DNA of 64,000 nt from Sphingomonas bacterium (GCF_028289855.1 NZ_JAQGKZ010000058.1:1-64000), one strand, 5' to 3'. Positions 21,427-28,943 are shown, counted from the first letter of the stretch. The notes: a model not told the origin generated them from the sequence alone. Made by a program: numbers and translations.

Positions 21427-22031
21427 CGCCGCCTCACGCCGCGCGCGACGACGATCGCTGAATCGGGGTTGGTGATGCTCTGTTCCACGTGGAACACTCC
21501 ATGCCACGTCCGCCGCGCCTCCGCCACCTCCTCGTCCGCGCTCTTTCCCTTCGGCAACAGCCAGATCGTCTCATTATTGGCGCATTGCGCGGCGGAGACG
21601 AACAAGGAATCGATCCGTGAAACGGCGCGCGCGGAGATGACCTTGGCCTTGTCGCGCACCGATTCCACCCTGGCCGCGATCACCGTGACCTCTTTCAGTC
21701 CGAGCGTGACGGCTGCATCACGCAGGTAATCCGCCCGCAATCGGCGCGGCTCGATCAATATCATTTCGCGCGCGGGTTCGACCGCCGCGACGGCCAGTCC
21801 GGGGAAACCCGCGCCGCTGCCGACATCGATCCACACGCCTTCCGGTCCCAAGGCCACCAGTTGCAGCGAATCGACGATGTGCCGCGCCCAGATCGTATCG
21901 AGCGTCGATCGCGCGACGAGGTTCTGGCGTTCGGCTTCTGTGGTGACGATTGTCGCCAATCGCTCGAGCCGGTTCATCGCCGCCGAATCGAACCGCGCCG
22001 CGGCCCATGTGCGAGCCTCGTCCTCAGTCAC
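21423..22031 (-). CDS. rsmG: 16S rRNA (guanine(527)-N(7))-methyltransferase
   Basis: [16 protein letters not shown] motif, gidA-gidB-parA order. Confidence 0.93.
21481..21496. promoter_or_regulatory. parS site (ParB-binding palindrome)
   Basis: Perfect 16-bp palindrome TGTTCCACGTGGAACA inside the 3' end of rsmG, next to parAB. Confidence 0.9.
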
Positions 22032-23879: not shown

Positions 23880-23895
23880 TGTTCCACGTGGAACA
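23880..23895. promoter_or_regulatory. parS site (second copy)
   Basis: Perfect 16-bp palindrome TGTTCCACGTGGAACA just upstream of mnmG. Confidence 0.9.
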
Positions 23896-23903
23896 CTCAT
23901 TTT
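23896..23903. repeat. Target-site duplication, left copy
   Basis: CTCATTTT immediately outside the left inverted repeat; identical copy at 27394-27401. Confidence 0.92.
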
Positions 23904-23995
23904 CGGCATTATGTAGCAAACGCACCAAGATGAAGGCACTAGCCCTCATCGTCGCACTGTTTGTCATCGTTTGCGGTGCAGGGAGCGCGCGGGCG

Positions 23996-24835
23996 TTAGG
24001 TGTAGCACCAAAAGGGGTGGTCCAAGGGTATCAGCCGCTCAACCGATGGCTCATACCGTTGTACAAGACGGTGGACGTGGGCACGTCCGTCGGAATCGAC
24101 GTAGTTAATCTGCCAAAATACGAGCATATCGGCCTCATCAGCCAAAACCTCGGCAACCCTGCCAGCGGGCAATGGTACATCGTTGGGGGCGGTGCTGCCC
24201 CAGCCCCGCTCAGGCGCGACATTCCAATTTACCGGGCGGAGTTCAATGACGGCGGGAAGGCCATGGTCATCCTCTTTGTCGAGAATGCGTACCAAGACGC
24301 CCCATTCTTTCAGCCACGCGGGCCCTTTCCCAAAATTTCCCCAATTGAACTCATATCCGTACCCCTCAAGGTTCGGCTCTTTGAGGTTTATCGAACTCTG
24401 GGTAAGCAACATATGAGGGCGATCCGCGCCCTCTATGGCTTTCTCAGCGGCAAGAGCGCTGCGTTGAGCGGCTTCAGTGGCCCGCAACGTCAAAATGATC
24501 GTGGCACCCAGACCCATGATGCTGACGAGACCAACCCAGAACCCACGTTCTGTCCACAGGGCGCTGCTTTCAGCGGCCCGCGCTGCCTTCCATTGAGCGC
24601 ACAGATCGGATTCCTCGCGCCCCTTTGGCTGTGTGCATGGCTCGCGATATTCAACGGGCTTGGCCTTATCGGCAAGCGCCGCATTAGCGGCCTCTGGATC
24701 GCCGGGGGCATAGCGGTAGGACTGATACCGCTCTTGCTCGGGATAATTTAGCGCAGTGATGTAAGCGCCCGTACAGAACGCAACGAACGCTAGTCCGATA
24801 GCTGCAAAGAGTGCGCCCCAATAGCGGCTAGACAT
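23996..24835 (-). CDS. Hypothetical membrane protein (transposon passenger)
   Basis: Two predicted TM segments (YWGALFAAIGLAFVAFCTGAYITAL; FWVGLVSIMGLGATIILTLRA) plus soluble C-terminus. Confidence 0.7.
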   Translation of the reverse strand: MSSRYWGALFAAIGLAFVAFCTGAYITALNYPEQERYQSYRYAPGDPEAANAALADKAKPVEYREPCTQPKGREESDLCAQWKAARAAESSALWTERGFWVGLVSIMGLGATIILTLRATEAAQRSALAAEKAIEGADRPHMLLTQSSINLKEPNLEGYGYEFNWGNFGKGPAWLKEWGVLVRILDKEDDHGLPAVIELRPVNWNVAPERGWGSTAPNDVPLPAGRVAEVLADEADMLVFWQINYVDSDGRAHVHRLVQRYEPSVERLIPLDHPFWCYT

Positions 24836-25014
24836 TGGACCAGGAACACTGCTGTAAACTTGCCACGAGCAAGCTTGTTACGGATGTTAGGTTCGGAGTC
24901 CACTACGCCGACCGCTGCCAGCTTTTCGACCAATCCGGCATAGGTGACGTTTCGGCGTTTCAACTCCGCCTTGAGCAGCCCCTTTACCTTCGCTTCCCAA
25001 ACCGTATCGCTCAT
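24790..25014 (-). CDS. DUF6471-like small protein (transposon passenger)
   Basis: MSDTVWEAKVKGLLKAELKRRNVTYAGLVEKLAAVGVVDSEPNIRNKLARGKFTAVFLVQCLAAIG; overlaps the next gene's start. Confidence 0.75.
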   Translation of the reverse strand: MSDTVWEAKVKGLLKAELKRRNVTYAGLVEKLAAVGVVDSEPNIRNKLARGKFTAVFLVQCLAAIGAHSLQLSD

Positions 25015-25114
25015 TTGCCACTCCATTCGTCGCAAATGCACTCATATACGATACATTTGCCCTTGCCAAGAGTACACCGTTGCCACTATATCCGATGCAT
25101 AAGCACTGGATACG

Positions 25115-26077
25115 ATGACAATGCAACACTTCCTCCTTTCCGCAGCCGCCCGCACCTTGAGCCTCAAGGCTGTTTTCAAGATGGGCGAGGATGCTGCCTA
25201 TCAGGCGTTCTGCGAGCTGCGTTGGCCCGAAACGGACGGCGAAGCGGTGTGCCCGCAATGCGGCTGCTGCGAGACGTACAACATCACGTCGCGCCGTCGT
25301 TACAAGTGCGTCGGCTGCTATCACCAGTTCAGCGTCACCAGCGGGACGATCTTCGCCAGCCGCAAGCTGTCGTTTACCGATCTGCTGGCGGCAATCGTGA
25401 TCTTCGTGAACGGCGCTAAGGGCGTGTCGGCGCTGCAAGTCAGCCGCGATCTGGACGTGCAGTACAAGACGGCCTTCGTCCTGTCGCACAAGCTGCGCGA
25501 AGCAATGGCGCTAGAGGATGCCGGTCAAAAGCTGTCGGGGACTGTCGAGGTCGACGGTGCCTATTTCGGCGGCTACGTGAAGCCCGCCAACGTCAAGGAT
25601 CATCGCGTCGATCGCCGCTACAAGCTGAACCAGTCAGGCAAGCGCCAGAACGTCGTGGTCGTTCGCGAGCGCGGCGGCGATATGCTGACCTTCGTCGGCA
25701 AGAGCGAAGGCGAAGGCGTTGCCCACGTTGCCCGCGTCGTGGAACCCGGAACGGTCGTTCATGCCGACGAAGCGAGCCATTGGGATGCCCTGCACGGTCG
25801 TTACGAGACGTTCCGCATCAATCACAGCGAAGCGTACTCACTGGACGGCGCTTGCACCAATCAGGCGGAAAGCTTCTTCTCGCGCCTTCGTCGCGCCGAA
25901 GTCGGTACGCACCATCATATCGCGGGTCCGTACCTGTACGCCTACGCTGGCGAAATGGCTTGGCGCGAGGATAACCGCCGCGTTCCCAATGGCGATCAAA
26001 CCGCGATGGTCGTTCGGTCGGCAATGGTGTCGCCAGTGTCGCGCAAGTGGGCGGGGTACTGGCAGCGCGGAGCCTAA
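25115..26077 (+). CDS. IS1595-family transposase
   Basis: CPQCGCCETYNITSRRRYKCVGCYHQFSVTSGTIF zinc ribbon, VEVDGAYFGGYVKP, HADEASHWDAL, TNQAESFFSRLRRAEVGTHHHI DDE domain. Confidence 0.93.
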   Translation: MTMQHFLLSAAARTLSLKAVFKMGEDAAYQAFCELRWPETDGEAVCPQCGCCETYNITSRRRYKCVGCYHQFSVTSGTIFASRKLSFTDLLAAIVIFVNGAKGVSALQVSRDLDVQYKTAFVLSHKLREAMALEDAGQKLSGTVEVDGAYFGGYVKPANVKDHRVDRRYKLNQSGKRQNVVVVRERGGDMLTFVGKSEGEGVAHVARVVEPGTVVHADEASHWDALHGRYETFRINHSEAYSLDGACTNQAESFFSRLRRAEVGTHHHIAGPYLYAYAGEMAWREDNRRVPNGDQTAMVVRSAMVSPVSRKWAGYWQRGA

Positions 26078-26532
26078 GCTAGCCTCAACTCAAAATCACC
26101 TGTGCGGTCGAACCGCAGATCGAAGCGCTCCAAGACGTCCATGCCTAAGATCGCGTCGAAGTTTTCATTGTTCGCGATGTCGATAATCTCGGTGGGATGA
26201 GGCAGGCCAAAATAGGTTCGCGTTTCGCTCACATCGGTATCGGTCCCGTTGGCGAAAAATCCAATTGTGGCCCAATAGAGATAATGGCGCGCTTCGTTGT
26301 GGACGTTTTGGATGAACCTCTTGCCGTGACTTTTTAGACTTTCGATTCCGATTACCCGGCGCGTGAGACAGGTTCTCTGCGCACCGGTATCAAGCAAGGC
26401 GCGATAGCCTTGAATCGGTATTTCAATCGAACGTTGCTCAGGTTCGACCGCTAGGATTTGCGGGACAAAAGCCTGAAAACCTATCTCTACTATCGCCTGT
26501 CGCCGTTCAAGCCTGCCCCGAGCCACCAGCAT
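26074..26532 (-). CDS. Retropepsin-like aspartic protease (transposon passenger)
   Basis: ALLDTGAQRTCL active-site motif and C-terminal FDAILGMDVLERFDLRFDRTGDFEL motif. Confidence 0.8.
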   Translation of the reverse strand: MLVARGRLERRQAIVEIGFQAFVPQILAVEPEQRSIEIPIQGYRALLDTGAQRTCLTRRVIGIESLKSHGKRFIQNVHNEARHYLYWATIGFFANGTDTDVSETRTYFGLPHPTEIIDIANNENFDAILGMDVLERFDLRFDRTGDFELRLA

Positions 26533-26764
26533 ATGAGTAGAATCCTAGGTTGTCGCGGTCAGTAGTGACCTCTTGGACTGAAAAGCGGCCTTCCCCAAAG
26601 CGCTTCACGCCCTCGATCATCGCTGCCAAGGCGTTTCCGCAATACGCTACTATATTGCGGTCGTGCATGACTGCGTACTGCCCACGGTGCTGCGGTAGGA
26701 TCTCGGGAAGCTGTTCAAGGAACGCTTCATAGTTCCGATCAATTTCGGCTATCTCGTTCGACAT
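26507..26764 (-). CDS. DUF5678-like small protein (transposon passenger)
   Basis: NYEAFLEQLPEILPQHRGQYAVMHDRNIVAYCGNALAAMIEGVKRFGEGRFSVQEV; 26-nt overlap with the protease gene. Confidence 0.65.
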   Translation of the reverse strand: MSNEIAEIDRNYEAFLEQLPEILPQHRGQYAVMHDRNIVAYCGNALAAMIEGVKRFGEGRFSVQEVTTDRDNLGFYSYAGGSGQA

Positions 26765-26827
26765 ATCCACGCCTCCACCCTTGCCGGTGTACGCTATCAT
26801 TGCGTTCCGAGTCGTGTCACGCGTTTT

Positions 26828-27307
26828 CTATATTGACTCCGGACCCGAATCGAGTCCGTGTGCCGAGACTCGCCATGCTGACAGACTCCAGCGCCCCGGA
26901 TGAGTCGAGGCATCGTAAATTACCGCGCCGTCCCTGCGCCGGGTGAAGGTGCTGAAAATGGTATTTGCCAGCATACCGCGCGACTCTGGCGTCACCGCCT
27001 TGCCAAGCCTTGTCAGTACTCGGCCAGCTATCTCGCTGGCAGTAAGCGGCTCGCCAGCCTCTCGCAGTACCGTGAGGGCTTCTCGGCTTCCCGCGCCCCT
27101 GCGAGTCCCGGCGGGGTTTTTCGAGAAGCTACGCTTCGGCAGTATGCCGTTCACGTCATAGCCGGGCCGGAACATCTTGATGACAGCATCAAGATTCGCA
27201 CGTTCAACCTCAAGCCTCATAATCTGAAAGCGTCGGTTCAGGATTTCCCCGTCGATGCGGGCGCGCTTGTCGATTAGCGCCGTCATAACGTGAGTTTCCG
27301 CCATCAC
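26828..27307 (-). CDS. Hypothetical protein with winged-helix-like C-terminal half (transposon passenger)
   Basis: SREALTVLREAGEPLTASEIAGRVLTRLGK...MLANTIFSTFTRRRDGAVIYD reads like a wHTH domain. Confidence 0.6.
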   Translation of the reverse strand: MMAETHVMTALIDKRARIDGEILNRRFQIMRLEVERANLDAVIKMFRPGYDVNGILPKRSFSKNPAGTRRGAGSREALTVLREAGEPLTASEIAGRVLTRLGKAVTPESRGMLANTIFSTFTRRRDGAVIYDASTHPGRWSLSAWRVSAHGLDSGPESI

Positions 27308-27393
27308 TCTGCCTATGCATCCGATACGATGGCATAGCGCACTCTTGCCGGTGGCATCTACCCACGTCTTGGTGCATCTGCTACATAATGCCG

Positions 27394-27401
27394 CTCATTT
27401 T
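27394..27401. repeat. Target-site duplication, right copy
   Basis: CTCATTTT immediately outside IRR; contains the mnmE stop codon (rc TGA, 27395-27397). Confidence 0.92.
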
Positions 27402-28675
27402 CCGATGCAGAACTTGCCAAACATGGCATCAAGCATCGCTTCGACCCCGACATCGCCGGTGATCCGTGCGAGCGCAGCGTTGGCACGACGCAGGGCGTCG
27501 GCGACGACCAGCTCGTCAGCGCAATCAATATCCCCCAGAGCATCGAACGCCATGCTGCAATGCCCGGCTTGCCGGGAATTGAGTGCCACATCCCCCGGCT
27601 TGGGGATCAGGACCGACGCATGGTTGGCGATGATCTCCCAAAGTGCCTCCACCGTCTCACCGCGTTGCGCGGATACCGACACGATCGGCCCCTCTCTTGG
27701 TTGTCCGCGACCGGGCAGATCGGCGCGAGCGTGGAGCCATAGCATGTGCGGAGCCGGTGGCGCATCGTCACCGAGCCACAATACGATATCGGCACCGGCG
27801 ATCGCCTCATCCGCGCGGGCGATACCGATCTGTTCGATTGCGTCGTCGGTTGTGTCGCGCAGTCCCGCGGTGTCGGTCAGCACGAATGGGATGCCTTCTC
27901 GCCCGACCGACACCTCGATCCGGTCGCGCGTGGTGCCGGCGATCGGCGAAACGATCGCAGCGTCGCGGCGCGAAAGCGCGTTGAGCAATGTCGATTTGCC
28001 GCTATTTGGCGGCCCGGCCAATACAACGCGCACGCCATCACGCAAGCGCTCCACCGTTGGTGCAGCGAGCGCCGCCGCCATCTCAGCCGCCACAGAACTT
28101 GCTCGCTCACGGATGTCGCCAAGTAATGCTGGAGGAACATCGGCCTCGTCGGCGAAATCGAGCGAAGCCTCGATCTGCGCGGCTAAGTCGAGCAATGCCG
28201 CCCGCCACCCTGCGATGCGCCGCGACAGAACGCCGTCAGCCATTGCCAGCGCGGCGCGGCGCTGCAATTCGGTCTCGGCTGTCAGTAGATCGCTGAGCCC
28301 TTCGGCTTCAGCGAGGTCGATCCGGCCGTTTCCTAGCGCGCGCCGCGTAAATTCGCCGGGCTCGGCACGACGCAGGCCGGGCTGCGCGCTCAGCGACGCC
28401 TCGACCGCCGCCACCACGGCACGGCCACCATGCAAATGGAGCTCGACTAGATCTTCGCCGGTCGCGGAGGCGGGTCCGGGAAAGACCAAAACGATCGCGC
28501 GGTCGAGATGATCACCGCTTTCCGGATCGCGAATCGTGCGCACGCGCGCTTCACGTGGAGCAGGGAGATCGCCGACAAGCGCGCGTGCCGCCGTCAGCGC
28601 TGCCGACCCGCTGATCCGCACGATGGCAATCGCCGCGGGCGGGGTCCCAGTTGAGGGCGCAAAGATCGTTTCCAT
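27395..28675 (-). CDS. mnmE: tRNA modification GTPase MnmE
   Basis: GPPNSGKSTLLNAL, GTTRDRIEV, DTAGLRDT, C-terminal MFGKFCIGK. Confidence 0.97.
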   Translation of the reverse strand: METIFAPSTGTPPAAIAIVRISGSAALTAARALVGDLPAPREARVRTIRDPESGDHLDRAIVLVFPGPASATGEDLVELHLHGGRAVVAAVEASLSAQPGLRRAEPGEFTRRALGNGRIDLAEAEGLSDLLTAETELQRRAALAMADGVLSRRIAGWRAALLDLAAQIEASLDFADEADVPPALLGDIRERASSVAAEMAAALAAPTVERLRDGVRVVLAGPPNSGKSTLLNALSRRDAAIVSPIAGTTRDRIEVSVGREGIPFVLTDTAGLRDTTDDAIEQIGIARADEAIAGADIVLWLGDDAPPAPHMLWLHARADLPGRGQPREGPIVSVSAQRGETVEALWEIIANHASVLIPKPGDVALNSRQAGHCSMAFDALGDIDCADELVVADALRRANAALARITGDVGVEAMLDAMFGKFCIGK

Positions 28676-28703
28676 GCCGTCAGTCGCCCTCGACCGCTTG
28701 GCG

Positions 28704-28943
28704 TCAATCCTTCGTCTTACCGGCCGCGTTGTCGAACAGGCCCCGCCAGAACGCCATACTCGAGTCACCCATCGGCATCCAGTTTTTCATCATGTTTTCA
28801 AGGAGTTCAGGCTTAATCGCGGTGCCATCCATCGCGCCCATGATCGATTGGATATATTTATCGTGGATCGGCGAGAGATCGGGCAGGCCGATCGCGCGGC
28901 GTGCTTCCTCGGGGGTGCAATCCACCTCGACATTGAACTTCAT
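28704..28943 (-). CDS. DUF6489-like small protein
   Basis: MKFNVEVDCTPEEARRAIGLPDLSPIHDKYI... Confidence 0.8.
   Translation of the reverse strand: MKFNVEVDCTPEEARRAIGLPDLSPIHDKYIQSIMGAMDGTAIKPELLENMMKNWMPMGDSSMAFWRGLFDNAAGKTKD

Follow-up and report, generated by a model that had tools for sequence, protein, structure and literature searches.

Among DDE transposons, target choice programmed by a protein is known best in the multi-component Tn7-like elements. Passenger genes are known within the IS1595 family, and islands integrated by tyrosine recombinases at an att core occupy conserved chromosomal positions: SGI1-type islands the 3' end of trmE/mnmE, and others the ends of tRNA genes. A single transposase gene is the usual, not defining, organization of IS1595 members according to PMC8101967; the 2009 paper on this family by Siguier, Gagnevin and Chandler, as cited in PMC3281130 and PMC8101967, refers in its title to the frontier between insertion sequences and transposons. 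Both Tn6022 and Tsy are guided by TnsF into the Walker B region of comM (Faure et al. 2023, PMC10293859).

The window analyzed here, a stretch of 64,000 nucleotides from a Sphingomonas bacterium, contains a 3,490-bp element (23904-27393) at the mnmE stop codon (Table 1). The initial annotation described it as a complete IS1595-type transposon inserted between mnmE and mnmG, and its ends, 8-bp target-site duplication (TSD) and intact transposase bear this out. Re-measurement reproduced both the 27-bp terminal inverted repeats (TIRs), which match at 25 of 27 positions (93% complementary), and the perfect direct repeat CTCATTTT. The transposase covers the full DDE_Tnp_IS1595 profile (PF12762, positions 1-153 of 153), contains the Zn_ribbon_IS1595 domain, and scores over the cut-off of NCBIfam transpos_IS1595 (NF033547). 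Thus, the Zn-ribbon and DDE_Tnp_IS1595 transposase, the TIRs of about 25 bp and the 8-bp TSD are those of the IS1595 family, whereas a second conserved gene that tracks the target, and site-specific insertion, set the element apart. With the SGI1-type and tRNA-end islands it shares the same kind of benign sites (the mnmE 3' end and tRNA 3' ends), but it moves by DDE transposition and has TIRs and a TSD; neither ORF inspection nor Pfam revealed an integrase gene in the window element.

The mnmE gene is unbroken because its stop codon falls within the TSD. The search for empty sites that had been proposed was positive: most of 23 congeneric genomes have an unoccupied site of the form mnmE-stop / TGTTYCACGTGRAAC, and in most of the 23 only a few bases, and no element, separate the mnmE stop from the palindrome TGTTCCACGTGGAACA behind it. 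The context ..TGAG/T.. is common to the congener loci L232, L238 and L239. A second perfect copy of the parS-like palindrome TGTTCCACGTGGAACA is located in the window at 21481-21496, in the parA/rsmG junction. The element is single-copy in its own genome (146 contigs), and its TIR consensus, CGGCATTATGTAGCAAACGCACC, was found again in approximately 80 elements. The existence of other copies with such ends, on which the initial annotation had made its reading depend, is thus confirmed, and since 80 relatives have the same type of ends, a chance origin of the ends and duplication is excluded.

Table 1. Features of the window element and its flanks (positions in the window).
Feature	Position	Strand	Details
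parS-like palindrome TGTTCCACGTGGAACA	23880..23895		abuts TSD; host sequence, start of mnmG
Left TSD (CTCATTTT)	23896..23903		perfect, 8/8
Left TIR	23904..23930	+	25/27 with right arm
Putative membrane protein of 279 aa (slot 1 cargo; cluster 3)	23996..24835	-	in 25/81 elements
DUF6471 HTH-like protein, backbone	24790..25041	-	divergent from transposase; PF20075, E=2.2e-29
IS1595-family DDE transposase	25115..26077	+	PF12762 2.4e-38, PF12760 1.2e-10, NF033547
Slot 2 cargo, retropepsin-like aspartic protease	26074..26532	-	D-T-G-A motif; PF13975 1.8e-4, below cut-off
Slot 2 cargo, 97-aa DUF5678-like protein	26507..26800	-	PF18929, E=0.078 only
Proposed target selector, mnmE-type wHTH protein	26828..27307	-	comparative analyses and AF2 model
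Right TIR	27367..27393	-	27 bp, pairs with left arm
Right TSD	27394..27401		perfect copy of left TSD; includes mnmE stop codon (TGA, minus strand, 27395-27397)
mnmE, target gene	27395..28768	-	last codons (..FCIGK*) form the insertion site; ORF intact

Scanning of genome contigs with the window transposase, together with loci from genome searches, yielded 81 non-redundant elements with recognizable ends, 2.3-7.0 kb in size (median 3.9 kb), with a TSD of 8/8 in 79 elements and of 7/8 in two. The family is widespread and mainly alphaproteobacterial. Usually there is one element per genome: a single transposase match was found in 21 of 22 Sphingomonadaceae genomes, and the same pattern holds for the single winged-helix match in 43 of 44 genomes. 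Gene clustering revealed a constant layout: slot 1, DUF6471 (minus strand), transposase (plus strand), slot 2, and a coiled-coil/winged-helix protein of about 145 aa (wHTH; minus strand). The transposase and the wHTH protein occur together in 80 of 81 elements; among these 80, DUF6471 is present in 76, and in 77 wHTH comes last, beside the right end. The single-gene organization was thus not observed, as essentially all members, the compact ones included, possess a second conserved gene. The elements L261 (1543 bp), L263 (1594 bp) and L264 (1688 bp) contain only the transposase and wHTH genes within a clean 8-bp TSD; such two-gene elements of 1.5-1.7 kb with perfect TSDs reside on plasmids of Limimaricola, Rhodovastum and Skermanella. 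Two further compact elements are the two-gene L260 of Paracoccus yeei (1,537 bp), which is without a TSD, and L259 (1874 bp), in which the transposase is degraded. Because the wHTH gene is kept in two-gene elements, it is a part of the machinery and not cargo.

The same insertion site, which reads like an IS3-family transposase gene, is occupied by L260 (4910-6446) on a plasmid of Paracoccus yeei and by L261 (4908-6450) on one of Limimaricola; the wHTHs of these two elements are 82% identical. Two elements are composite: L090 (6529-11937), in which the wHTH gene and the right end are each present twice, and L060 (6675-13667), with two transposase copies; tandem or nested insertion is a possible origin of both.

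The five non-transposase genes of the window element had all been taken for cargo. For three of them this holds: comparison across elements identified the left-end membrane protein and the retropepsin-like/DUF5678-like pair as variable, while DUF6471 and wHTH belong to the backbone (76/80 and 80/81 elements, respectively). No confident assignment was obtained for the window cargo by Pfam, NCBIfam and PADLOC: the slot 1 protein gave no match in any of the three, and the protease gave a weak PADLOC match (PDC-M08B, 0.003). The DUF5678-like gene overlaps the protease gene and is probably co-transcribed with it. Among 142 slot ORFs of the family, PADLOC and Pfam detected BstA, ShosA/ShosT, PsyrA and PDC-type candidates, as well as methyltransferase, Panacea, Fic and ParE/Phd-like proteins. 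A BstA-like protein is encoded in slot 2 of L072 (9318-10154), and several elements have defense- or toxin-antitoxin-like genes in the variable slots. The HTH-like DUF6471 protein is probably a regulator of expression. The motif GATACGATGnCA is repeated at 25091-25120, between the transposase and DUF6471 genes, and at 27310-27334, upstream of the wHTH gene, and is a possible candidate for a shared operator.

Insertion sites were read from reconstructed empty sites, with host-gene classes partly assigned by reading flanks. The main target, occupied by 43 of the 81 elements, is comM/yifB of the Mg_chelatase family, with insertions at (i) codon column 528 phase 0 (comM-A; LPxLxxxE/AL; 21 insertions), (ii) column 592 phase 0 (comM-B; LDELPE/F, Walker B; 21 insertions), and (iii) a position near the N-terminus (one insertion). 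Genes for GT2 glycosyltransferases contain 14 elements at five recurrent positions. Insertions in tRNA genes are exactly at the 3' end (Arg, Ser and Gln; in a later set Gln, Gln and Pro). The mnmE stop site is occupied at the same exact position by the window element and by L085 from a Rhodospirillaceae MAG. Elements lie in either orientation (8+/13- and 7+/14- at the two main comM sites), and the wobble positions around the comM sites, inspected for a footprint, show no extra conservation. Three distant elements, L193, L194 and L195 (transposases 43-49% identical to the set), are located exactly at tRNA-Gln/Pro 3' ends and have wHTHs of a divergent type.

Insertion is therefore not random. 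An ordinary IS1595 transposon with random passengers, for which mnmE was an accidental site or a preference of the transposase and the recurrence of sites is due to survivorship in dispensable genes, would agree with the IS1595-family elements with 8-bp TSDs already known and with some GA..TC-like bias in the TSDs. This explanation is very unlikely, as survivorship alone cannot account for the 42 insertions that fall on just two exact nucleotide positions of comM, and near-identical transposases are found at different sites and diverged transposases at the same site. Nor is the mnmE position incidental, because L085, from another order, is at the identical stop-codon position and carries the closest relative of the window wHTH protein.

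In these sequence comparisons, the target site follows the winged-helix type and not the transposase type. Target labels change 28 times on the transposase tree vs 8 times on the wHTH tree; for the comM-A and comM-B labels, the respective numbers are 8 and 1. For elements with all three genes, 27 changes were counted for the transposase, 7 for wHTH, and 29 for DUF6471, with a shuffled mean of 35. In leave-one-out nearest-neighbor prediction, wHTH gave the exact site for 63 of 66 elements, the transposase for 24, and DUF6471 for 23. Where the transposases of two elements are identical to 80% or more, the median wHTH identity is 62% for the same target vs 32% for different targets. For instance, L031 in comM-B and L070 in a glycosyltransferase gene have transposases 93% identical and wHTHs 36% identical. 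The window element is the clearest case: its transposase is 85-87% identical to those of elements in comM-A or another gene, where the wHTH identity is 19-24%, whereas its wHTH is closest to that of L085 (41-44%), with a transposase identity of only about 66%.

Since wHTH adjoins the right flank (it is terminal there in 77 of 80 cases), elements that share a locus could recombine, and the protein would then track the site although it does not choose it. However, the left-end membrane protein, a control encoded at the equally exposed opposite end, predicted the exact site in only 3 of 20 cases; in L102, L105 and L124, the wHTH gene is internal and still tracks the target; and both orientations occur at the comM sites. 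We thus regard such hitchhiking as highly improbable.

Held-out elements were found through a wHTH profile and read independently, with target classes assigned by reading flanks; only elements that had a TSD of 8/8, shared 55% or more identity with their nearest wHTH and were not copies were counted. The wHTH protein correctly predicted 10 of 14 targets (L171, L176, L179, L180, L182, L185, L189, L191, L255 and L256) and failed for L173, L174, L178 and L254; the nearest transposase was correct for two (L171 and L176). Small wHTH proteins are often repressors, and the ligand of this one could be its own gene or nearby promoters, in which case it would be an auxiliary factor (a regulator or target-immunity protein) co-adapting to the locus after integration. 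This is unlikely: wHTH proteins from different orders still predict the target at identities as low as about 40-50%, benign sites (tRNA ends, for example) are predicted as well, and the persistence of wHTH in two-gene elements points to a function in transposition.

Specificity is incomplete, since some elements (L036, L044, L168 and L178), comM-A-type ones among them, occupy non-cognate sites while comM is intact in the same genome. Absence or occupation of comM was considered as a reason for the use of secondary sites and rejected, comM being intact in G765, G519, G043 and G156. In two genomes with comM-B-type wHTHs, G041 and G642, comM is broken. The idea of an occupied comM fits only the second copy of the nearly identical L081/L082 pair of Phenylobacterium sp. 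J426, one in comM-B and one elsewhere; this copy possibly represents secondary-site transposition once the primary site was filled. The comM-A-type element L036 (8156-11505) is inserted in a TraA/MobF-relaxase-like gene, with the chromosomal comM intact, and apparently resides on a conjugative element. Searches with the window wHTH found no relatives in viral contigs and one distant match in plasmids; among 385 class-level genomes, only distant matches to mnmE-type selectors were detected, and two of those read are comM-type.

The window wHTH protein, for which Pfam and NCBIfam contain no family, consists of a coiled-coil helix (residues 2-46), a variable linker (47-71) and a winged HTH domain (72-150). 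In the AF2 model (pLDDT 87.5), the N-terminal part is one long helix, which a flexible linker joins to the wHTH; the best Foldseek match in PDB is weak (E 5e-3, a PadR-like regulator). Most target-informative columns are located in the linker (59-68), at residue 119 in the recognition helix, or in the wing. We suggest that the wHTH protein, probably a dimer formed via its N-terminal helix, binds conserved target DNA through the linker and wHTH, and that the DNA-bound protein would recruit the TIR-bound transposase, leading to insertion in either orientation with an 8-bp duplication. Exchange of the winged-helix gene, with the transposase nearly unchanged, would switch the target. The window element, with its proposed mnmE-type selector, is located exactly at the mnmE stop and leaves mnmE intact. 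Cargo is held in the two variable slots and includes, in several elements, genes resembling those of toxin-antitoxin or anti-phage defense systems. Since two-gene elements exist, an AAA+ intermediary is unnecessary within the element.

Exact sites in diverse genes also resemble those of guided systems, and the window element has short, chance-level matches to the 3' end of mnmE that could be read as traces of a nucleic-acid guide inside the element. This possibility is extremely remote: the longest element-interior match averages 9.81 bp for the own target vs 9.72 bp for other targets, and no guide RNA or DNA similarity between element and target was observed above background. As judged from sequence, this IS1595-type family very likely has a two-protein machinery composed of a DDE transposase and the coiled-coil/winged-helix protein of about 145 aa as a modular target selector. 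It is likely, at a somewhat lower confidence, that this protein alone, without an AAA+ ATPase or RNA, sets the exact site, and that natural swaps of it have many times switched IS1595 elements from one to another of the comM, glycosyltransferase, tRNA and mnmE sites.

By analogy, the IS1595 element would work like the Tn7-family selectors without being a Tn7-like member. Tn7-like elements have a dedicated swappable selector (TnsD/TniQ; TnsF of Tn6022), as is proposed for the wHTH protein, and they too have conserved-gene targets; here, however, an IS1595 transposase replaces TnsA/TnsB, the TSD is 8 bp, either orientation occurs, and the two-gene elements are without the AAA+ protein TnsC. No TnsA, TnsB, TnsC or TniQ domains were detected in the window element by Pfam, NCBIfam and PADLOC, and neither a TniQ nor a tyrosine-recombinase domain was found in the small proposed wHTH selector. 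The AbaR/Tn6022 islands of Acinetobacter are similar in their insertion into comM and their cargo, but have a different transposition machinery and selector. The TnsF target of Tn6022/Tsy and the IS1595 comM-B site are in the same Walker B motif, which is a case of convergence. In the open-access literature searched, we found no description of IS1595 in connection with comM/yifB, a target selector or DUF6471; within the literature searched, the target-selector role appears to be new for the IS1595 transposon family.

The importance of the window feature is that the wHTH gene first called cargo most probably encodes a modular target selector. If so, modular selectors evolved independently within an IS family, in minimal form, which would explain a widespread family of small winged-helix proteins that lack annotation, as well as the recurrent inactivation of the natural-transformation gene comM among alphaproteobacteria. 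The convergence with TnsF on the comM Walker B region supports the view of conserved ATPase codons as general anchors of mobile elements, and a single-protein selector could become a compact tool for site-specific insertion.
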